This document shows, in pieces, positions 1 through 63,363 of a stretch of 64,000 nt of DNA. The stretch spans positions 678,969 through 742,968 of the forward strand of contig CAUYUJ010020726.1 of assembly GCA_963575745.1 (NCBI GenBank), written 5' to 3'. Position 1 is the stretch's first letter; each line of letters opens with the position of its first letter. Under the pieces are notes generated by a model, which was not told where the DNA came from, made no database searches, and worked only from the letters and a program-made list of their open reading frames with translations. This DNA comes from Prorocentrum cordatum (lineage: Eukaryota > Sar > Dinophyceae > Prorocentrales > Prorocentraceae). The position numbers and the translations under genes were made by a program.

Positions 1-1980
1 TGGTCTTGGACAAAGGAGTTCGTCGGCGTACAAGTATGGCTATTGCGTGGCCAGGAGTGACTGGTCCCATCTTGGGCGCGCATTCGGCGGTTCTTAGACA
101 TCTACAGAAGCGTTATTCGGGAAACTTCTCGACCAGTATCTCCGCGCGCCCAGTGGGCGGCCCGGCAGGGCCCAGGCCAACTACTTGCGACGACGCTGCT
201 CCGCACGAGTTGGGCCGTGGCTTCTTCTACTGACTGCAGTGCCTCCTTGGGATCATGTCTGGATGTTGCGGCTATTTCCCCACGTGAAATGGTCGCCCTA
301 GTGGCGCGCGCCGCGCATGCCTCTGCAGGGCATCCGCTGCGCAACCGCACGCCAGCCCTCTTTTCACGGGCCCCGCGCGGGCCTTCCAGAGCAAGACCGC
401 TCCAGGATGGAGTGAATTGCAAAGCCGTGGTCTGAGAGCCTTTCAAAAAACGTTTACCGATTTTATAAATTCATATATGATTTACAAATTCCTTCTGCAT
501 CGCCTAAACCCTGTTAGCCTTGTATTGCACACTCTGTGGGGGGGGTCAACGCTAGCATGAATGTCGAAGGTGGTTTGGATCGAGGCGCTGCGTTGCGATT
601 CTTTTGGGCAAAGCCAGTCTGGGCGTCTGCGCTGGCCCCTGATCCGAGGAGTTCCGCTTTTGTGCCCCCTCCCCCAAGCCGGTCTGGTTGCGCGCCCTTG
701 AAGGGCCATGGGCTCGGCGCCTGTGCTCGGTGGCGGCCTGGGAACTTCCAGCCCCTCTCCGCTCTGTCGGCGTGGATTGGCCAGGGCGCGTGCTCTTAGT
801 CGGGGGCGCGAGTGCGCGCTGCAGCCTGCGGCGCTCTCCCCGCGATCGTTCAAGACGTTCCAGGTGCAGAGCTATTTGCGCGTCGTCTCCATATATATAT
901 ATATATGTGCGCATGGCGCACCGTGCCTTGAATGCGAGTATACAGCCGACTCAGCATGCAACTGACGTTCGGAACCAGGGGTTTCGAAACGGCCGCGCAC
1001 GGGCGGGCCGAACGGCGCCCGCCATGGCGCGAGGTCCACCGCGCAACTTCCGACATTGGCCACCACTCGATAATAACTTAGTAGGGTTCGCCCCCTGCAG
1101 ACGCGCAGTTGCCGTCGGGCGCTATCATGGAAATCGAGATTCAGATCGTCTAGCGACGCTGGGTGGGCCACGCTAGCTCGCGCGAAGCGCTCCGCTATGG
1201 CAGTCGCCCGAGTTGCCCTGCAAATGGCTTGCTGCGCTGCCGGGATGTCCAAGCGCGCGCCCGAAGACGCGCCGCGCCCAGCCGCGCGCGCCGCCGCCTT
1301 TTTCAGGGCCTCGGGGCCGACGCGGCAGGGCTGCGCTGGACGCAGGCGCGGACGCTTCAGCCCTCCTCCTTCGGCTGTGCCCATGGGCGACCTCTCGGCG
1401 GAGTGGCTTCTGGAGCGGGCTCACAGGGGTGGCTCCAGCACCGGCCCGCGCGCTTGGATTGGGGCAATCCGCTGTCCTCTCCTCGCCCCCGCCCGCCCTC
1501 GCGCCCAGCGCCCACGCACGCGAAGCGAGACCCACCAGGCGGACCCGTGGCGCGAGCGCGGCGACATCCTCCGCGGCGCCCATTGCTCATCGCACACTGT
1601 CGCTGCACGGGCACGCCTCGCACACGGGCGCCACAGCATGCGGTGATCCGGCGCCCGAAGCATTCCACCAGCGCGCGCCTTTCTGGAGCCGGAACAGCGC
1701 AAAGCGGGCACGCACGCGGGACAGCCGCCCCTCTCTCAGCCACGCATCTCCAGCGGAGCGCGGCCGGGCGCCCGCGCCAGTGCCAGGGCCAGGCAGTGCC
1801 GCCAAATCGTGCGCCCCCACGGCGCCCGCCGCACGCCGGGGGATAGCGGCCCCCGCGTTGGGGTCACCAGCACCCGGCGTGCCCAGCCGCATGAGCTATG
1901 CCTGATCGTACGCCTGGACGGCCAGCATCGCCACCGAGCAGTTTCCATTGCTCCTGGGCATTTCGCCGCGGCGCGCTGCG
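1..1980. other. GC-rich stretch, no confident gene
   Basis: No reading frame here has recognisable domains. Open frames on both strands are those expected of very GC-rich DNA. On the minus strand, around 1750-1420, one frame reads APDHRMLW followed by an arginine/alanine-rich segment. This loosely resembles the zinc-binding region that precedes RNase H in the LINEs elsewhere in the window, so it may be very old LINE debris. A short (TA)n run lies at about 889-906. Nothing else is supported. Confidence 0.3.
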
Positions 1981-3147: not shown

Positions 3148-3310
3148 TCAGGAGGGAAAGAAACACACAGACACAATTAATCGTCGATTCCCAGGAAAAT
3201 ATGGGAAAATATGGGAAGTGGGGGGGAAGACAAAAACCCTGAAAATATTAGAAAATATGGGGAATCATTTTATTTGTGTGTATTTATTTGTGTGTCCTGG
3301 GGCCCCTTCA
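3148..3310 (+). mobile_element. Family C element, copy 1
   Basis: A 163-bp element starting TCAGGAGGGAAAGAAACACA and ending GGGGCCCCTTCA, flanked by an exact 5-bp duplication ACGGC (3143-3147 and 3311-3315). The interior is A/T-richer than its surroundings, with repeated AAATATGGGAA and TTATTTGTGTGT. Seven copies occur in the window. The terminal inverted repeat is short (T-C/G-A-G/A-G-A/G-GG). Non-coding. Confidence 0.75.
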
Positions 3311-3425
3311 ACGGCGCCCTCCCAGAGGCCGCCTCCTTTCTGGGAACCTCTGTGCGCGCCGCCGCAGCAGAGTGGAGGGAGGCGGGAGGAGGCTTCTCCC
3401 CGTCGTGTGACCCTGTCGTGCTAGC

Positions 3426-3621: not shown

Positions 3622-3663
3622 CTGTCGTGCTAGCGCACGAGGCCTGGGCACAGTACATGGTGC

Positions 3664-3808
3664 TCAGGAAGGGGAAAAACACACAGACACAATTCTTAGT
3701 CGACTCCCTGGAACATGTGGGAGAATATGGGAGAGTGGGGGGGATAACAAAAGCCAGAAACGATGGGAAAATATGAGGTATTTATTTGTGTGTCCCAGGG
3801 CCCCTTGA
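3664..3808 (+). mobile_element. Family C element, copy 2
   Basis: Starts TCAGGAAGGGGAAAAACACA and ends GGGCCCCTTGA. Flanks GGTGC and GTTGC match at 4 of 5 positions. It lies 30 bp downstream of the preceding MITE's duplication. Confidence 0.65.
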
Positions 3809-3879
3809 GTTGCTAGGTTCGGTTCCTGAACGGATGGCGGTCCCCCCAGCGCGCACTTTATTCGGTACATCCGAAGAAG

Positions 3880-9850: not shown

Positions 9851-10015
9851 TCAGGAGGGAAAGAAACACACAGACACAATGAATCGTAGATTCCCAAGAA
9901 AATATAGGAACATATGGGAAGTGAGGGGGAAGGCAAAAGCCGAGAAACTATGGGGAATTATAGGGGAATCTTTTTTACTTGCGTGTATTTATTTATGTGT
10001 CCCAGGGCCCCTTCA
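9851..10015 (+). mobile_element. Family C element, copy 3
   Basis: Starts TCAGGAGGGAAAGAAACACA and ends GGGCCCCTTCA, with flanks TTTTG and ATTTG (4 of 5 identical). Confidence 0.7.
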
Positions 10016-10460
10016 ATTTGTAGGGCCTATCTCGATGGTCTTGTCGGGGGTGGACAGGCCTCCTACCCTGACACGTCGATTCGTGAATTGGCCGTTTTCT
10101 GTCCTCGAGAGGGCGCCGCGGCCGTCATTGTCCAGGCTTGCGCCCGCCAGGTTTGGGCCCGAGGTCGTTTTCACTAAACCACGTTTTTGCGAAAGGGAGC
10201 TCTGTCCATCCCCGATGGTGCTCCGAAGAGATCTCGGTTCTGGCCGGCTCGATCCGATCCGGTTTTGATGCTCTGGCGATCCGATGCGGCTGTGTGTTTG
10301 CATGGTGTAGCTGTGGAGGCCTCAGCGCGATGAGAGCGTCAAAGCGGTCCCCGACCGGCCTCCTGTGGGCCGCTCTGTGATCCGTGGGCCACCCAGGAGG
10401 AGTCGGGCGGGGGAGGAGGAGGGGGAGAGTGGAGGAAGAAGACGCACTCCTGCGGCAGTG

Positions 10461-10692: not shown

Positions 10693-10853
10693 TCAGGAGA
10701 GAAAGAAACACACAGACACAATGAATCGTCGACTCCCAGGATAATATGGGAATATAGGGGAAGTGGGGGGGAAGACAAACCAAGAACAGATGGGGAAATA
10801 TGGGGAATCCTGTTATGTGTGTCTATTTATTTGTGCGTCTCAGGGCCCCTTCA
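10693..10853 (+). mobile_element. Family C element, copy 4
   Basis: Starts TCAGGAGAGAAAGAAACACA and ends AGGGCCCCTTCA. CAGTA occurs just outside or overlapping both ends. Confidence 0.7.
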
Positions 10854-10865
10854 GTAGGCGCATCG

Positions 10866-11277
10866 AACGAGAAACCGATTACGCTGCCAGCGGTTGCCCC
10901 ACTCAAATTCATCATCCCCCAATGGCCCCAGGGACTCACAGAAGCTCTGGGCCACCTTGAGGACCCTCCAAGATCGGCGAAGGATGTACCAGCAGATCTC
11001 TCATGGCAAGAGTTCAAAGCACGCCTTTGCCTCCTGCATCTCGGCTCCAGGCCCGATCCGCCTTGCCTGGAGGGCCACACTTGGGGGGAGATCGTCGCGG
11101 CAGAGGGCGCCCTCGGATCGGAGCATGCGGCCCCTGCTCCTGGACGGCTGCGGCGCCGACGGCCCGGAGGACTCGGGCTCCGACGCGGAGAACGCCACGG
11201 AGAGCACCCTCTCCTGCGGCTCGCTCCGCGAGCTGCCCCGCAGCGCCACCCGGGTGGACCGGAAGATGGGGTGGAGC
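10866..11277 (+). other. Possible 5' exon(s) upstream of the anoctamin gene
   Basis: A frame starting at ATG 11125 reads MRPLLLDGCGADGPEDSGSD and then a Ser/Glu-rich segment ending MGWSSLLRTSGEDK, with the G/C-ending codons seen in the anoctamin exons. It runs into the foldback element at 11307. Anoctamin N-termini are variable, so this could be its start or a separate gene. Upstream 10866-11120 is open in several frames and not interpretable. Confidence 0.3.
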
Positions 11278-11450
11278 TCGCTCCTGAGGACGTCCGGGGA
11301 GGACAAAGGATTGCAAAAAACCTGAACGAAGGATTGCAAAAAAACCTGGGTGAAGGATAGAAGAAAAAACAGTGTTTTTGTTTGCAATCCTTTGCAATCC
11401 TGGTTTTTTTTTTGCAATCCTTCGCTCCTGAGGACGCCCGGGGAGGACAA
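11278..11450. mobile_element. Foldback element (11307-11421) between 29-bp direct repeats
   Basis: The core starts AGGATTGCAAAAAACC and ends with its complement GCAATCCT after a T-run. Copies of the GGATTGCAAAAAA unit recur inside in both orientations. On each side lies the same 29-bp sequence (11278-11306 and 11422-11450, one mismatch) encoding SLLRT-S/P-GEDK. The right copy is followed by GTGGCA, a possible splice donor. Confidence 0.6.
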
Positions 11451-11651
11451 GTGGCACCGATAGCGCGCGGCTCGTGCCGGGGGAGCCCCTCGTCGGCACG
11501 GCGGAGTGCGCCTCGAGATTATTGCCACGTTTCCTTGACAAAGTATATACACAAAGCATCACATGGCAGCACTGACGTGGATTTGGAAAGTAGAAACCTG
11601 GAGTTTAAAGAAGAATCAAAAACAAAAAAGGGAACACAAAATCATGTCCGA

Positions 11652-14600
11652 AGGCACCCCTTGAGAGGTCCGGGGGGCCGCGGTATCGGGACCCCAATCG
11701 CCCACCCAAGGACGCACGCGGTCATCGACAGCGAGGACGCCACGTACGTCATCGTGTTTACACGGGCGCGCGAGCCTGGCAGTGTGGATCCCGACAGGCT
11801 GATCTTGGACCCGCAGGAGCGGGCGAGGCAGATCTTCGTGCGGCCCGAGGACCAGGAGATCGAGGGTCTCGGCTCCGAACCTGTCCGCGCCGCCGTATAC
11901 CATGAGCTTGTGCGGCAGAGGATCCAGGCGCTTCTTCTGAGAAGTGGTTTCATGTGTTCTTCTTTCCCTAGCGTAGATGGAGACGAAACCTTCCTGAAGA
12001 TCCATTTGGACCCCGAGGGAGAGACGGTCTACGCGCTGGCCGAGCACTTCGAGTACAGGGTGCCCCTCAGCAGGAAGTGCTACAAATCTACGAAGCAGAT
12101 CACCAATCAAGCAGGTTGGACATGCTTCGCCCATACCGCCTTCACCAGGAAGCTGCACCAGGAGGGGAAACTACAGCCATTCCGGCAAGTGGACCTGATA
12201 CGCATCGCCTATCAGCATCTGTCCAGCTTGGTGAATTTGGAGCAGCTGCTGCTCCAGGAATTCATCGTTACCCACTTCCCCGCGGCGGGTTTTGAGGAGT
12301 TGAGGGCCCTCGAGATGCACTGGACTCTGCCATTGCACTGCCGCGCACAGCTTGTGCCCAAGCAGGTCAAGGATTATTTCGGTGAGAAGATTGGTTTCTA
12401 CGTTCACTTTTTTATTTTCTACATCCGTGCTCTGTGCGTGTTGAGCCTGATCGCATTGCCCTTCACCTTGGTTAAAAGGTGTGTCTTCCCCGCCGACGTG
12501 CACATGGCAGCACTGGTCAACATCGGGTTCGGGGCCGCGGTAGTGCTGTGGGCGGTGTTCTTCGAGGTCATCCTGGTCCGGAGCATCGCCCGCACCGCCC
12601 AGGGGTGGTCAACTAGACGTTAGAGTGACCCTTCGCCGGAGTGACCTTTGGTGCGCGCTCACTGGGGTCCCCCGATCGCCGCGCTCGTTGCGATATAAGC
12701 GTCTTGCGCGCTTGTGTTTGGCCTCCTCGCGCCCCCACAAAAGCCGCGCACCAAAGGTCACTCTTACCCAGGGTCGCTCTTGCGTGTAGTCGAGGTGGGG
12801 AACCAATGAGGCCAGGCTGGCGCCCGGGCAGGAGGTCCCGGGGGTGGGCTTCGACCCCAGCCTGGCGGGCACCCGGAGGGAGCGCCAACTGCACGTCTTC
12901 GCGGCGCTGTGCTCGGCCTCGTACTGCATGCTGTTCGTGCTGGGCGTCATGGTCATCAACTCGCAGCGGCTGAACGAGTCGTGCCAGAAGACCAAGGCTT
13001 AAGGGCGAAGAACGGTATGAAATAAACTTTTTCGCCGTCGGGGGCGCCTGCCCCTGGGCGGCTGGAAAGTTTATACCCCTACGGTGCCACCGTAAGGGTA
13101 TAAACTTTCCAGCCGCCCTGGGGCAGGTGTCCCCGACGGCGAAAACGTTTATGTTATACCGTTCTTCGCCCGTAAAAAGGCGTGGCTCATCGCGGCGTTA
13201 ATTGTCGTCGCGAAGAAGGTGTGGGGCATGATCGCGCCGCGGCTCACCAGGCTGGAGAACCACAGGACGCAGAAGCGCTTCGACGACGAGCTGACGCTGA
13301 GGCTTTCAGCCTTGAAGATATTCTTCCTGCTCTGGCCAGCTTTGGATGTCTTCGTCTTCGAAGGGCACTCGCACTGTGCAGGCACCAGGAGGGAGGCAGC
13401 CGAGATGGTTTACGGGGCGTTGCCATTGAACGGTTCGGCCCCAAAGTGGCCTCGAGGGGAGTTCGCTGGCGAGTTGAACGTGAATACGTACGAGGATCGG
13501 CTACGCGTAAGAGTGACCGTTCGCCAGGGTGGCCTGTGGTGTGGGCTCACAGGGGATCCCAGAGCACTAGCCTGCGCGCTTGGATCTTGCCCCCGCAGGC
13601 CCCCCCGAAGCCGCGCAACAAAGGTCACGCCTGCCTAAGGTCGCTCTTTGCGTGCAGCCGAGAGGAGCTTCTCGCTGGGTACTACTTGGATTCGAGGCCG
13701 GGGGCATCGAACACGCTTTGGCACCTTCCTGGGGAGGGCCACATGGTTTGCCTATCGTCCTGCCTTCCGAAAGAGGATTGCGTTCGAGTTCATGACCGTG
13801 TGGATTGTAAGACAAATTGCCATGTGGACTTTGAGTACCAAATCCATACTCAGTTTGTCCTGCACGTCGCTTCGTCATTGTTGCTTACAGTAGTCCCTCT
13901 CGTCTTCACTAAGCGTGCTATCAGGCAGGATTTTTCGGCGGCACAGCGACAGAATGCCCCGAGGGACCACGCGCAATCTCGGGCCGCCGAGTACTCAGAT
14001 TTGGAAGTGCAAGCGAAGTGCCAAATAAATGCAAAATACGAGTATGCACAGTGGGGGGGGTCCTTTGTCGAGGACTTCCTGGAGCTAATGCTTGGGTTCG
14101 CGTACATTACTATTTTCGCCATGGTCAAGCCTGCTATGATCTTGATCGCAACTGTCGCGCAGCTAGTGGAGTACGGCCTGCTCGTCCTGCGGATGCGACT
14201 TGTAACGGGTCGGCCGTACCCAGAAGCGGCCGCAGACATCGGTAAGTGGAGGTTGGTGATTGTGATGGTCGGGACCGTCGCAGCTTTCTTTAACGGGTAC
14301 ATCGCGGCATTCGTGATACGGCCAGCGTGGTTCACGGGCGTTCAGCGATGGTTGGTGTTCTTGGTCTTTGGTGGCGTCAGCCTGCTGGTGCGCACGATCG
14401 TTCGGAACGTGGTCCCCGATCAGCCCCATGATGTCCGCCTTATCGACGACTACAACGCTGACGTATTACGGCATCTCCGGCCTGTGGTGGAGACGCTTCA
14501 GTTCGAGGAGGGCCATCGTCAAAATCATGTGGACATCCGCTTGTGCCCGGACGACATGCCTGACGTGGGTGCCATGTCAACTAGTTTGGTTCACAATCCA

Positions 14601-14732
14601 CTGGAAGCGCTGGAGTGCGGCCTGTCCACAGTGACCAACCTGTCTCCGCGCTCGCCAACGCTACTAGAAACGATGGCGCTGCGCACACGTAACCCACTGG
14701 AGAAGGCAAAGCGGACTCATCATCGTCAGTAG
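11652..14732 (+). CDS. Anoctamin (TMEM16-family) membrane protein, four exons
   Basis: Predicted TMEM16/anoctamin, a family of calcium-regulated ion channels and lipid scramblases. Exons: about 11652-12604, 12795-12996, 13180-13494 and 13665-14732 (stop TAG), joining to about 845 codons in one frame. Exon 1 carries the cytosolic N-terminal part and the family hallmark KDYFGEKIGFYVHFFIFYIR entering helix 1, then a second hydrophobic segment. Exon 2 starts at WGTNEA. Exon 3 has RLTRLENHRTQKRFDDELTL, matching the conserved LENHRT block. Exon 4 has helices including FLELMLGFAYITIFAMVKP and VAQLVEYGLLVL. By eye, the TM7 acidic pair is present as D/E and one TM8 Glu remains. The TM6 Asn/Glu pair and the second TM8 acid appear to be missing, so calcium gating may be altered. 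The true start is uncertain: the frame stays open upstream into repeats, and a 5' exon may exist. All introns are inserted elements. Confidence 0.9.
12609..12793 (+). mobile_element. Introner forming anoctamin intron 1 (intron 12605-12794, GT-AG)
   Basis: A 185-bp element starting TCAACTAGACGTTAGAGTGA and ending GTCGCTCTTGCGTGTAGTCGA, the imperfect complement. A second inverted pair inside is GAGTGACCTTTGGTGCGCG and its perfect complement. Flanking 5-bp duplication: GGTGG at 12604-12608 and 12794-12798. Cutting G|GTGG gives a GT donor from the duplication and an AG acceptor made of the element's last A plus the duplication's first G. The join reads AQGW-GTNEA, with no residue added or lost. 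An inner pair GTTAGAG...TGTAG also exists but would shift the frame. Confidence 0.85.
12999..13176. mobile_element. Palindromic foldback introner forming anoctamin intron 2 (12997-13179, GC-AG)
   Basis: A 178-bp near-perfect palindrome: left arm TTAAGGGCGAAGAACGGTAT, right arm ATACCGTTCTTCGCCCGTAAA, complementary almost to the centre (about 13085). Flanked by exact 5-bp AAGGC (12994-12998 and 13177-13181). Cutting AAG|GC gives a GC donor and AG acceptor, both from the duplicated target, and joins KTK to AWLIAALIVV in frame. Left unspliced, it introduces TAA at its second codon. Confidence 0.85.
13497..13661 (+). mobile_element. Introner forming anoctamin intron 3 (13495-13664, GA-AG)
   Basis: A 165-bp relative of the intron 1 element: starts TCGGCTACGCGTAAGAGTGA, ends GCTCTTTGCGTGCAGCCGA. 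Exact 5-bp duplication GAGGA at 13492-13496 and 13662-13666. Cutting GAG|GA gives a GA donor, a type known in dinoflagellates, and an AG acceptor, and restores NVNTYE-ELLAGYYLD. The stronger-looking inner sites GTAAGAG and GTGCAG would add 19 nt and break the frame, as the inner pair would in intron 1. Confidence 0.85.
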
Positions 14733-18033: not shown

Positions 18034-18054
18034 CCGTAGCCACTTGGGCTCTAG
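18034..18054 (+). other. Relict spliced-leader sequence
   Basis: The 21 bases begin CCGTAGCCA and match the dinoflagellate spliced-leader exon at 18 of 21 positions, without gaps, by eye and from memory of the consensus. Relict leaders mark genes re-inserted from trans-spliced mRNA. It lies directly before the gene at 18055-19522. A partial second echo (CCACTTGGGC) at about 18065-18074 could be an older leader or chance. Confidence 0.65.
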
Positions 18055-31470: not shown

Positions 31471-31749
31471 ACGTGCCCCAGTCGGAGGCGACGATAGGGG
31501 CGAATAGCCCAGGGGAGAGCAATACATGTATCCAGGGGCGCCGATGATCGATGTCTTCGACAAGGCTCCCGGGCGAGTACGTGCAATGCCCGCCCCTGGG
31601 CTAGTCGCCCTTATCGTCGCCGCCGACCCAGTCCCCAAGCGACACCGTCCCGAGCCTGTGCCGACCCACCGCGCCGCGGAGCTGAGCGACACCTGCGGGT
31701 GCGCTCTTCGGCCAGGTCGCGGGCACGGCCGGAGCCAGGCAGAGCCTCC

Positions 31750-35677: not shown

Positions 35678-36104
35678 AAGCTGCATGTAAGTCGGCGGCG
35701 AGCAAGGGGGGGGCGGAAAAGAGGGGGGTGATGACTAGGGGGGTGGATATCATGGCGGGGGCATGATATCTCCCCAAATTTCATGGCGCCTCTTCTTGTT
35801 CCATTACGTCCCCGGCCCCCCCGCTGGGCCGCGCACATGCCGCCGGTCATGATCTGCACCCCCCCTCTTGGACACCCCCCTCTTGGCCGCTCCCGATGCA
35901 TGCAAGTCGGCGGCGAGCAAGGGGGGGGGGAGGGAGACGGAGAAGGCCTTCTCAGAAGGCGGCGGGGCGTCTCTCAAGCCCCCGCGCCTTCCGAGCGTTT
36001 TTATGTTGTCTTCGGGGAAGGCTCAGAAAACTTCTCAGACAGCCGGGGGACCTCCGAGCCTCCTGAGACGACCCGTCCCTTCTCACTTCCCCCCCCCCGG
36101 CGCG
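35678..36104. other. Intergenic; CTTCTCAGAAGG-type palindromes
   Basis: GCCTTCTCAGAAGGC at about 35945-35960 and related TTCTCAGA copies. No gene. Confidence 0.4.
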
Positions 36105-36287
36105 CCTCCTACGTAAGAGTGGCCTGTCGCCAGAGTGGCCTGTGGTGCGGGCACATTGGGGCCCGCAGGTAGCTGGACGCGATGCGATCGCGGCGGGTGG
36201 CGCGCTCGGGTTTGCTCTCCCCGCGCACCCCGAGAACTCCGCACCAGAGGTCGCTCTTGCCCCGAGTCACTCGTTGCGTGCAGCCGA
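36105..36287 (+). mobile_element. Third copy of the anoctamin introner family
   Basis: Reads ACGTAAGAGTGGCCTG at the left and GTTGCGTGCAGCCGA at the right, with an internal GAGTGGCCTGTGGTGCGGGC near-complementary to GCACCAGAGGTCGCTC. It aligns along its length with anoctamin introns 1 and 3. Possible target duplication GGCG(C/G), imperfect. The canonical-looking GTAAGAG...TGCAG pair is intact. The flanking DNA has no recognisable exon, so it may be intergenic or interrupt an undetected gene. Confidence 0.75.
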
Positions 36288-36754: not shown

Positions 36755-36915
36755 TCAGGAGGGAAAGAACACACAGACACAATTAATCGTCGATGCCATG
36801 GAAAACATTGGAAATTATGGCAAGCGGGGGGGAGATTAGAATCCAGAAAACATGGTAAAATATGAGGAATCTGGTTATCTGTGTCTATGTTTTGATGTGT
36901 CCCAGCGCCCCCTCA
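36755..36915 (+). mobile_element. Family C element, copy 5
   Basis: Starts TCAGGAGGGAAAGAACACAC and ends GCGCCCCCTCA. Confidence 0.7.
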
Positions 36916-36934
36916 AGCTGGGAATGCTGAAACT

Positions 36935-47286: not shown

Positions 47287-47438
47287 TCAGGAGGGGGAAA
47301 AACACACAGACACAATGAATCTAGAAAATATGGGAAAATATGGGAAGTGGGGGGGAAGACAAACACCCAGAAAATATTGGAAATATCAGGAATCCGGTTA
47401 TTTGTGTGTATTCATTTGTATGTCCCAGATCCCTTTCA
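47287..47438 (+). mobile_element. Family C element, copy 6 (exact 5-bp TSD)
   Basis: Starts TCAGGAGGGGGAAAAACACA, ends AGATCCCTTTCA. Flanks ATGAC at 47282-47286 and 47439-47443 are identical. Confidence 0.8.
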
Positions 47439-47459
47439 ATGACGTCAGAGATGTCGGTC

Positions 47460-47615
47460 TAGGGGGCCACGTGCGAACCCTACCCCTACCCCCACACGAT
47501 TTCTGAAGGGGAGGGTGGGGTTCACTACGCTCGGGAGCTCCCGAACGAAGTGAACCCCACCCTCCCCCTCAGACATCGTCGGGGGTTAGGGGTAGGGTTC
47601 GCATGCGGCCCCCTA
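47460..47615. mobile_element. Palindromic foldback element (exact 5-bp TSD)
   Basis: A 156-bp near-perfect palindrome: left arm TAGGGGGCCACGTGCGAACC, right arm GGTTCGCATGCGGCCCCCTA, centre GGGAGCTCCC. Exact flank CGGTC at 47455-47459 and 47616-47620. Same architecture as anoctamin intron 2, with unrelated sequence. Confidence 0.85.
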
Positions 47616-61794: not shown

Positions 61795-62515
61795 CCAAGT
61801 TGCCACGCATAGCTTGCATCTCAAAAGTGCTAAGTCTAGTCGTCTGGGGTCCACGCCAGCTGACATGGGTTCTCGGTTCTTACTTGTGTTACCTGAGGAG
61901 ATGGATGGATCTGTCGAAGATTCCCCCGGGTGCCCAGTTGGTGCACGGTCGTGGGCGCCTCGTCGTGGTCTCACGAGGTTTCGCCTGGTGCCTTGTTGGT
62001 GCCCCGGTCGCGGGTGCTCCCGTCGCGCACATTGGGCGCTCCAGATGGCGCAACCGGCAAAGTTTTCACCACATGGTTATCACCGCCAAGTTTGCACCAC
62101 ATAGTTTGCTCCTCACAGTTTGAACCACAGAGCCTGCACCAGACGCTTTTCTTTACAAAAGTTGCACCGCATGCCTTGCACCATTCGTTTGCAGTGCTGT
62201 CGGTTCTAGCCCACGCTGGCAAACATGGGTGACCTAAGGGTTTTTGGTAAGCTTGGCTTTTTGGGCCTCATGGCCCTAGAGCCATCTTCGAGCACTGTGG
62301 AGGTTGAGGCCCTCGGCCACGCTCTCAGGGTTTTGGAAAAAGTGGTCACGCGGGGATTCGCGGCAGCGACCAGAGCACGGGGTCTGGGCCGTTTGCTAAG
62401 TATTTTCAGTATTTTGGTGCGGAGATCTGGAAGGAAGCTCGAAACAATCCATTCCGGTAAAAGGGATTTGGTGCTAGCAATGTGTTGCCCCCCAGTTGCT
62501 TACGTAGCTAGTTGC
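61795..62515. other. Upstream region of the phosphatase gene
   Basis: No gene recognised. A 62225-62614 open frame overlaps the phosphatase start in another phase and has no motif. No TATA box identified; dinoflagellate promoters usually lack one. Confidence 0.4.
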
Positions 62516-62519
62516 ACTT

Positions 62520-62540
62520 ACGTTTGCCATTTGGTGCAAG
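62520..62540 (+). other. Possible relict spliced leader
   Basis: GCCATTTGGTGCAAG matches the 3' 16 bases of the dinoflagellate spliced leader with one deleted T and two mismatches; the bases further 5' (ACGTTT) fit poorly. It lies 46 bp upstream of the ATG of an intronless gene, where a retained leader is expected. Weaker than the 18034 case. Confidence 0.45.
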
Positions 62541-62586
62541 GTTGGCCTCATGCAGGCTTGCGTGCATCAAGTACTCGTATTTCGTC

Positions 62587-63363
62587 ATGGACAATATTCG
62601 TGCCACTTCCATGACGACACCCTTCGGAGCAGTGCCGCCCGTGCGCCCTGGTTATATAAGATTGTTGCTTGCACGTCATGGCGAGTCACTTGGGAATCAC
62701 GTCAAAGTTTTGGATAACCGCGCAGGTTGCGATACTGATGCGTTGACGGAGACGGGGAGGGCTCAAGCAGCAGCGTTGGGTGTAGCTTTGAGGGAATCGT
62801 GTGTCTTTCCTGGGGAAGGGCTTGTATGTGTGGGAAGCTCTACCATGCGGCGGGCTATTGACACAGCAACGATTATTGCCAAGGAGGCCTTCCCAAGTGC
62901 AGCTTACATGCAACCGTCAGATGCGTTAGTGGAGATAGACAATGGCAACTTGGACGGCCGATCCATTGACGAAGTCAGGGGTGAATTGGGAGCAGTAGCT
63001 GCGGCTTGGGAACGCGGGGACATCGATGTGCGTGTTGGCGAGACTGGTGACAGCCCCAGGATGCTACAGGACCGGGCAATTAGCGGCTTGCAAAGTGTGC
63101 TCAGCGATTTGCCACCAGGAACTTCTGTTGCGCTCATCGTTGCCCACTTCTGGTTGAACCGCACACTTCTTGCAATGTGGATGCGCATGGATCTGTCCAA
63201 ACTTGGTGAGATCCGACAGCCCAACGCTGGCCTCAGTGTGGTGGATGTGGAGGTTTCTAATGTTCGGATTGCTGAAGTGCATATTGTCGGCTGGCAGCCA
63301 ATCAAGGATCCTGGCCATGTACATGCATCTCCGACACCAGGGGAGGATAGCCGTGGTTCTTAA
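62587..63363 (+). CDS. Histidine phosphatase family protein (phosphoglycerate mutase-like)
   Basis: A complete intronless frame of 258 codons, MDNIRATSMTTPFGAVPPVR to stop TAA. The catalytic RHG motif is LLLARHGESLGN (phospho-accepting His31). It is followed by ALTETGRAQAAALG, SSTMRRAIDTATIIA (the substrate-binding Arg region), VEIDNGNLDGRSIDE (acidic region) and LIVAHFWLNRTLL with the second catalytic His at about 187. All core residues of the superfamily are present, so an active phosphatase or mutase-type enzyme is likely; substrate cannot be told. No signal peptide or membrane segment. The Met at 62587 is chosen because the frame is also open upstream, but that part is short and falls at the possible relict leader. 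Codon use is less GC-biased than in the anoctamin gene. Absence of introns fits a retroposed origin. Confidence 0.9.
   Translation: MDNIRATSMTTPFGAVPPVRPGYIRLLLARHGESLGNHVKVLDNRAGCDTDALTETGRAQAAALGVALRESCVFPGEGLVCVGSSTMRRAIDTATIIAKEAFPSAAYMQPSDALVEIDNGNLDGRSIDEVRGELGAVAAAWERGDIDVRVGETGDSPRMLQDRAISGLQSVLSDLPPGTSVALIVAHFWLNRTLLAMWMRMDLSKLGEIRQPNAGLSVVDVEVSNVRIAEVHIVGWQPIKDPGHVHASPTPGEDSRGS

Follow-up and report, generated by a model that had tools for sequence, protein, structure and literature searches.

Three MITEs of two families in the exons of one Prorocentrum cordatum anoctamin gene are very probably spliced through their duplicated targets

Ordinary MITEs are short elements with terminal inverted repeats (TIRs), a target duplication of fixed length and many dispersed copies. 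The three copies described here differ from ordinary MITEs in that they lie within coding exons, where they read as introns. This kind of intron is already known, also in P. cordatum, and the introns of the anoctamin gene are a well-documented further case. The relevant passages of PMC9860276 describe introners that combine inverted repeats with short duplications, and some of their families co-opt both splice sites. In its account of Symbiodinium (Gozashti et al. 2022, PMC9860276), the introner resembles the present elements in its TIRs, its short duplications and the recruitment of the donor from the duplication, but it duplicates 4 bp and brings its own 3' splice site, whereas the duplication here was 5 bp and neither site was carried. 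The Florenciella introners, according to the legend of Fig. 2E in the same paper, bring no splice site of their own and take both from the insertion site, as here; Florenciella is a different lineage from P. cordatum, and the likeness concerns splice-site co-option. Roy et al. 2023, as quoted in a passage of a review (PMC11453091), put the number of introns in Polarella that stem from recent introners at 12,253. The introner elements of Amoebophrya, in the part of PMC7789003 that treats them, have 8-20-nt inverted repeats, 3-5-nt direct repeats and a hairpin joining the exon borders, with highly variable non-canonical splice motifs where the present locus has GT/GC/GA-AG. In P. cordatum itself, the introner section of PMC10666404 reported enriched introner elements with inverted repeats of 8-20 nt and direct repeats of 3-5 nt at most 30 bases from the intron ends, a definition that element 1 and its 5-bp duplication fit by inspection. 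Family sequences, a register rule and a copy-based duplication length are not given in the passages and section of PMC10666404 on these introners. A literature search for Prorocentrum with miniature inverted-repeat found no match.

The window analysed was a stretch of 64,000 nucleotides of P. cordatum DNA, in which the anoctamin gene occupies five exons (Table 1). When four putative introns were removed, an 880-codon open frame was obtained. The joined protein scored 156.1 bits against Pfam Anoctamin PF04547 (E 1.9e-45, 256-766 of 862 aa), above the gathering score of 28 for membership in Anoctamin/TMEM16, and matched a solved anoctamin-10 structure (E 1.6e-15). The joined frame was 65% identical to a homolog, and in the alignment with a 66%-identical protein the gaps lay several residues away from the exon joins. 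With any one of the three elements retained, the frame ended at codon 359, 422 or 573, and with intron 0 retained it ended at codon 67. The first-pass annotation had claimed that deleting each element with one duplicate restores a single frame, and the resulting open frame did match Pfam Anoctamin; it had also spoken of three introns in all, which had to be corrected, as a fourth (intron 0) is present upstream. Protein searches for the gene's own model (candidate lengths of about 220-1490 aa, one search scoring the best 8000 candidates only) returned only paralogs and relatives among the matches listed. Viral and prokaryote contigs scanned for the gene gave 49 and 91 pattern matches, none of which passed, and no relative was confirmed there. 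Scans of the window with ARAGORN (bacterial code) and Rfam were empty.

Table 1. Positions of the anoctamin gene parts, the inserted elements and related repeats in the window; introns are predicted.
Feature	Position	Strand	Remarks
Partial old copy, element 1/3 family	1371..1483	+	
Copies of a repeat of ~130-165 bp	3148-3311, 3662-3817, 9851-10016, 10693-10853, 36755-36916, 47287-47439		
Exon 1	11125..11288	+	ATG (11125) frame aligned to N-terminus of P0001
Intron 0	11289..11710	+	GA...AG, 422 bp; AGGACG 6-bp repeat at 11287 and 11709
Repeat element in intron 0	11307..11421	unstranded	115 bp, inverted-repeat
Exon 2	11711..12604	+	
Left target-site duplication, element 1	12604..12608	+	GGTGG
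Intron 1	12605..12794	+	GT...AG, 190 bp, from element 1; only exact-restoring register
Element 1	12609..12793	+	185-bp MITE; ends TCAACTAGACG / CGTGTAGTCGA
Right target-site duplication, element 1	12794..12798	+	GGTGG
Exon 3	12795..12996	+	
Left target-site duplication, element 2	12994..12998	+	AAGGC
Intron 2	12997..13179	+	GC...AG, 183 bp, from element 2
Element 2	12999..13176	undefined	178-bp near-palindromic MITE
Right target-site duplication, element 2	13177..13181	+	AAGGC
Exon 4	13180..13494	+	
Left target-site duplication, element 3	13492..13496	+	GAGGA
Intron 3	13495..13664	+	GA...AG, 170 bp, from element 3
Element 3	13497..13661	+	165 bp; candidate older subfamily of the element 1 family
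Right target-site duplication, element 3	13662..13666	+	GAGGA
Exon 5 and stop codon	13665..14732	+	stop at 14732
Further copy, element 1 family	36103..36287	+	73% to element 1, nhmmer E 6.7e-52; ends degraded; within no identified gene

The segments read as introns 1-3 are MITE insertions between exact 5-bp duplications. The flanks GGTGG, AAGGC and GAGGA were all recovered where they had been noted, and the TIRs ascribed to each insertion were found on all three, as 49-nt arms with 80% complementarity in element 1, as a palindrome with 88-nt arms (91% complementary) in element 2, and as ends that match over 11 nt, 2 mismatches included, in element 3. That these segments are spliced is suggested by the frame, the splice dinucleotides and homologous uninterrupted ORFs. 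An 11-nt end repeat (at most 2 mismatches) with a 5-bp duplication occurred 17 times in the window versus 3-11 times per shuffle (20 shuffles), in a scan that passed over insertion 2 because its ends are offset by one base; the combination is thus not rare by chance in 64 kb, which makes the genome-wide copies the deciding evidence. Over the whole window, 15 inverted-repeat pairs with 4-5-bp duplications were counted, some of them overlapping, whereas 20 shuffles averaged 1.9; two clear cases (47460-47615 and 31482-31626) are outside the anoctamin gene.

All three elements have T as the first base and A as the last. Neither the donor G nor the acceptor AG is therefore supplied by the element, and a register starting or ending wholly on element bases is impossible. 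Exactly one register per element restored the exons, GT-AG for element 1, GC-AG for element 2 and GA-AG for element 3. The acceptor of element 1 would consist of its own last A and the first G of the duplicate, and elements 1 and 3, which belong to one family, have different registers. A random 5-mer of the coding sequence permitted a register at 310 of 2641 positions, so that three together have a chance of 0.0016. The donor usage published for P. cordatum (PMC10666404) is GT 24.7, GC 51.4 and GA 23.8%.

The mobility of the elements was examined in their copies across the genome. Near full-length copies of element 1 at 92-96% made up 39 others among 40 scored of 3317 candidates, and for element 2 there were 39 others at 94-97% among 40 scored of 2294 candidates. 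Of the 39 fetched copies in the element 1 family, 22 had an exact 5-bp duplication, 10 had one mismatch and 7 had three or more (L019 and L020 have a flank in common, so these two copies do not count as independent); the flanks matched in 32, 32, 33, 32 and 28 of 39 copies at offsets 1-5 and in 7/39 at offset 6. The element 2 family, with end offsets chosen as those yielding most flank matches, gave 25 exact 5-bp duplications among 39 fetched copies, matching in 34, 34, 33, 33 and 35 of 39 at offsets 1-5 and in 1/39 at offset 6. A 4-bp duplication for element 2, considered on the grounds of palindrome symmetry, was ruled out by these 39 copies, in which it is 5 bp. Over 177 bp, elements 1 and 3 were 69% identical, and the closest genome copies of element 3 among the matches listed were at 76-81%. 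When 20 of its 39 listed relatives were fetched, one had an exact duplication and nine had one mismatch, and flank matches reached 10-15/20 at offsets 1-5 and 2/20 at offset 6, a weaker signal. Within the element 1 family, element 3 would be either an older subfamily or a copy that has no close sisters. Similarity between elements 2 and 1 was looked for and none was found. The earlier proposal of at least two families was borne out by two unrelated ones, one of them apparently with two subfamilies. With TIRs, a duplication fixed at 5 bp and multiple dispersed near-identical copies (76-81% for element 3), the insertions have the properties of MITEs. Scans of viral contigs with element patterns gave 0 and 4 matches, and four is about what chance would give for a 16-mer by our estimate.

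The name introner, which the first-pass annotation had used, holds for the behaviour of these three copies, but not for the families as wholes, which are general MITEs with no visible target preference. The genome-wide search that it had proposed did find many copies; among exact duplications, however, only 5 of 47 were splice-ready, a proxy for introns, and no enrichment was seen. Counted on either strand, these were 5/22 in the element 1 family and 0/25 in the element 2 family, versus 23.5% of the 5-mers in the window. The flanks AGGH, GAGH and GGAH before the element 1 end were found in 84, 51 and 67 genome copies, about the background expectation (6655, 4407 and 4424 in 183 kb). An excess of AGGH (84 vs 51) was considered and rejected, being accounted for by the trinucleotide background, with which the third comparator (GGAH, 67) agrees. 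Since splice-ready targets are not enriched, introns of this kind can be at most a minority of the sampled copies. It is unlikely, on these counts, that the families are dedicated introners, spreading mainly as introns with splicing signals or a target preference of their own. Such families would account for three copies in one gene all reading as introns and for one further copy that appears to interrupt a helicase frame at a splice-ready duplication (L156, below), but the element ends contain no donor or acceptor, the duplications had no clear base preference in 39 copies each of the element 1 and element 2 families, and by the splice-ready proxy the copies were not concentrated at introns. 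Both families seem to insert regardless of splicing, with the anoctamin copies as exceptions in exons that survived (3/3 splice-ready vs 5/47 sampled, hypergeometric ~0.003 by our own arithmetic).

Three relatives of element 3 with splice-ready or nearly splice-ready flanks (L154, L155 and L156) were viewed more widely. At L156 (C12180 422200-424000), the relative appears to break an AAA_11 helicase frame with an exact GGAGA duplication in a GA-AG register; the restored frame has 544 codons, and the AAA_11 match (E 1.8e-9, aa 169-284) spans the join at aa 269. The opposite strand there is also open, over 512 codons; in a genome this rich in GC, an open frame by itself says little. The restored frame of L155 has 543 codons, with no Pfam match in the 284 aa scanned, and L154 has a short sense frame only. 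The first 20 of the 84 AGGH copies were fetched, and 10 had exact duplications (right end by simple motif match), L162 and L164 sharing their flanks. L173 resembles a channel N-terminus by eye, and a Pfam scan of it found nothing. L029 combines a splice-ready duplication with a long joined ORF, but it was rejected as a split-domain case because its Exo_endo_phos domain lies downstream of the join.

Another reading, which we regard as improbable, is that the window gene is a pseudogene or silent copy hit by MITEs, with no splicing. No transcript of the gene was seen, its splicing being predicted, and the gene family does yield pseudogenes: an anoctamin paralog at C1022 (55827-58095, L065), which matches aa 61-810, is intronless, has several stop codons and looks like a processed pseudogene. 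The window gene, by contrast, was open for 880 codons across four intron removals at the stated identity to its homolog, and all three of its duplications were splice-ready, with the small chance calculated above.

The gene was compared exon by exon with six paralogs found in the same genome (C15433, C14134, C602, C14101, C18042 and C1022); a seventh, C19155, spans none of the sites. At the intron 1 site all six paralogs read through, gap-free at the join. The intron 2 site was crossed by one HSP in 6/6, cleanly in C15433, C14134 and C602; in C14101, C18042 and C1022 the alignment has gaps at the join or close to it. The intron 3 site was covered by an HSP in 6/6, but C1022 is unaligned there and C14134 weak. 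The sister paralog C15433 lacks all four introns. Among proteins, P0015 (83% over aligned positions, on a 1330-nt contig) was gap-free across the intron 3 site, P0001, of 874 codons, has a longest contig of 2732 nt, which leaves no room for such introns, and the P. cordatum protein P0002 was 97-99% identical to C14101 over two long stretches. In the tree, the window gene grouped with P0015 first, then with C15433 and P0001, then with the rest. Coding sequence thus runs through all three sites in the aligning paralogs, and by this comparison the predicted introns 1-3 are gains on the lineage of this gene, at sites that are empty in same-genome paralogs; the tree placement makes a single gain per intron simpler than repeated loss. 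Three independent gains had been put forward before, and the uninterrupted sites agree with this, as do frame-interrupting segments that come from separate insertions. The introns of the paralogs lie at other codons than those of the window gene, several at similar codons in 2-3 loci (judged from HSP ends only), and are absent from the window gene apart from a possibly common intron 0 in C14134. Such turnover, with paralog introns at codons where the window gene has none, is what an ancestral origin of introns 1-3 followed by loss in the paralogs would build on, but it calls for losses both in the line of C15433 and, separately, among the outgroup loci, whereas under gain a single event suffices for each intron, and near-identical sisters of elements 1 and 2 exist at other places in the genome, which leaves this origin very improbable. 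It is likewise scarcely credible that introns 1-3 are old inherited introns later invaded or replaced by MITEs, for although MITEs nest in older introns, and intron 0 holds a repeat element and may be old (the C14134 homology begins at the same codon after AG), the duplications of introns 1-3 lie exactly at the exon-intron borders, each whole intron equals the element plus one duplicate, and the aligning paralogs have no intron at these sites.

We consider it very probable that three MITEs of two families entered the exons of this one gene and are spliced out via the duplicated target. Non-autonomous cut-and-paste MITEs would enter exons, each duplicating 5 bp of target; the intron would begin in the left duplicate (G followed by T, C or A) and end at the matching point in the right duplicate (AG). 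Because the points match in both duplicates, splicing would return the original mRNA exactly. The inverted-repeat hairpin may draw the splice sites together and so aid splicing. The predicted stems of the introns place the two splice sites near each other, intron 2 folding into one long hairpin (-156.2 kcal/mol, z -22, 0/200 shuffles as good), intron 1 with z -8.2 (0/200) and intron 3 with z -4.0 (1/200). When the stem pairs of element 3 and the 36-kb copy were compared with those of element 1, 58 were the same, 10 had one partner changed, 3 had both partners changed and 12 were broken, with 1 gap, numbers that do not demonstrate selection on the fold beyond the inverted repeat itself. A host that accepts GT, GC and GA as donors, together with acceptors in which AG precedes G, would let the insertions persist; the spliceosome presumably removes all three segments in vivo, and the insertions probably survived because they were spliceable. 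One gene would hold three transposon-born introns side by side, with each donor class once and uninterrupted sites in same-genome paralogs. This suggests a rule by which the donor dinucleotide is set by the duplicated target and not by the element, and such a rule could help explain the use of GT, GC and GA donors in dinoflagellates. The null expectation for splice-ready targets is computable, so introners versus MITEs plus tolerant splicing can be tested genome-wide.

Intron 0 was defined by P0001, the N-terminus of which matches 11125-11288, the frame resuming at 11711. Its ends were inspected and no matching terminal inverted repeat was found. The 115-bp element within it lies between two copies of a 29-bp direct repeat, at 11278-11306 and 11422-11450, which differ by one mismatch, and the genome matches listed for intron 0 (40 of 763 candidates scored) span only its positions 12-147, which is this element. 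The element belongs to a dispersed family; in 20 copies fetched, the flanking repeat was 19 bp in L117, 10 bp in L133 and absent in most, so its duplications may be long and variable, unlike those of a cut-and-paste element. An exact 15-mer is common to intron 0 (11560-11574) and exon 2 (12501-12515), as is a 12-mer (at 11674 and 12531). At the intron 0 site, C15433 and C602 are uninterrupted and C14101 is badly aligned. In C14134, homology starts at the exact codon of intron 0, between AG and G, and the sequence upstream holds stop codons; this locus may have an intron at that codon or may start there. Intron 0 as a clean gain was abandoned, since the C14134 homology begins at the same codon.

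The paralogs have at most one intron in common with the window gene, namely intron 0, which may also exist in C14134; a retroposition-type loss would explain this. The window gene, on this hypothesis, may be a copy that, perhaps through retroposition, was stripped of almost all its ancestral introns and then re-populated by mobile DNA. If intron 0 is common with C14134, this speaks against retroposition. A spliced-leader relic was not found upstream of the gene (best 13 of 21), nor was an exact flanking repeat of at least 11 bases around it. A wider reading, which we put forward only tentatively, takes intron gain as a by-product of target-neutral MITEs and a spliceosome that tolerates GT, GC and GA, in a gene perhaps emptied and refilled in this way; the possible sharing of intron 0 with C14134 lowers its odds. 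It is conceivable, as part of that same tentative reading, that any 5-bp duplication with AG before G-A, G-C or G-T can make a MITE removable, one family thereby giving different registers.

Other features were observed in the window. Inverted-repeat elements outside the anoctamin gene, at 47460-47615 and 31482-31626, have the exact 5-bp duplications CGGTC and CCCAG, and the ends TCGG...CCGA of the latter are common with element 3. The repeat of about 130-165 bp was present at six places, pairwise 70-86% identical. At 18034-18054 (+), an 18/21 match, the best on the + strand of the window, was found to the dinoflagellate spliced-leader motif; it may be a relic of a reinserted transcript, unconnected with the anoctamin gene. 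An intact histidine phosphatase ORF (His_Phos_1, E 3.5e-30) lies at 62512-63363 (+), apparently intronless, and the closest proteins found were 74-75% identical.
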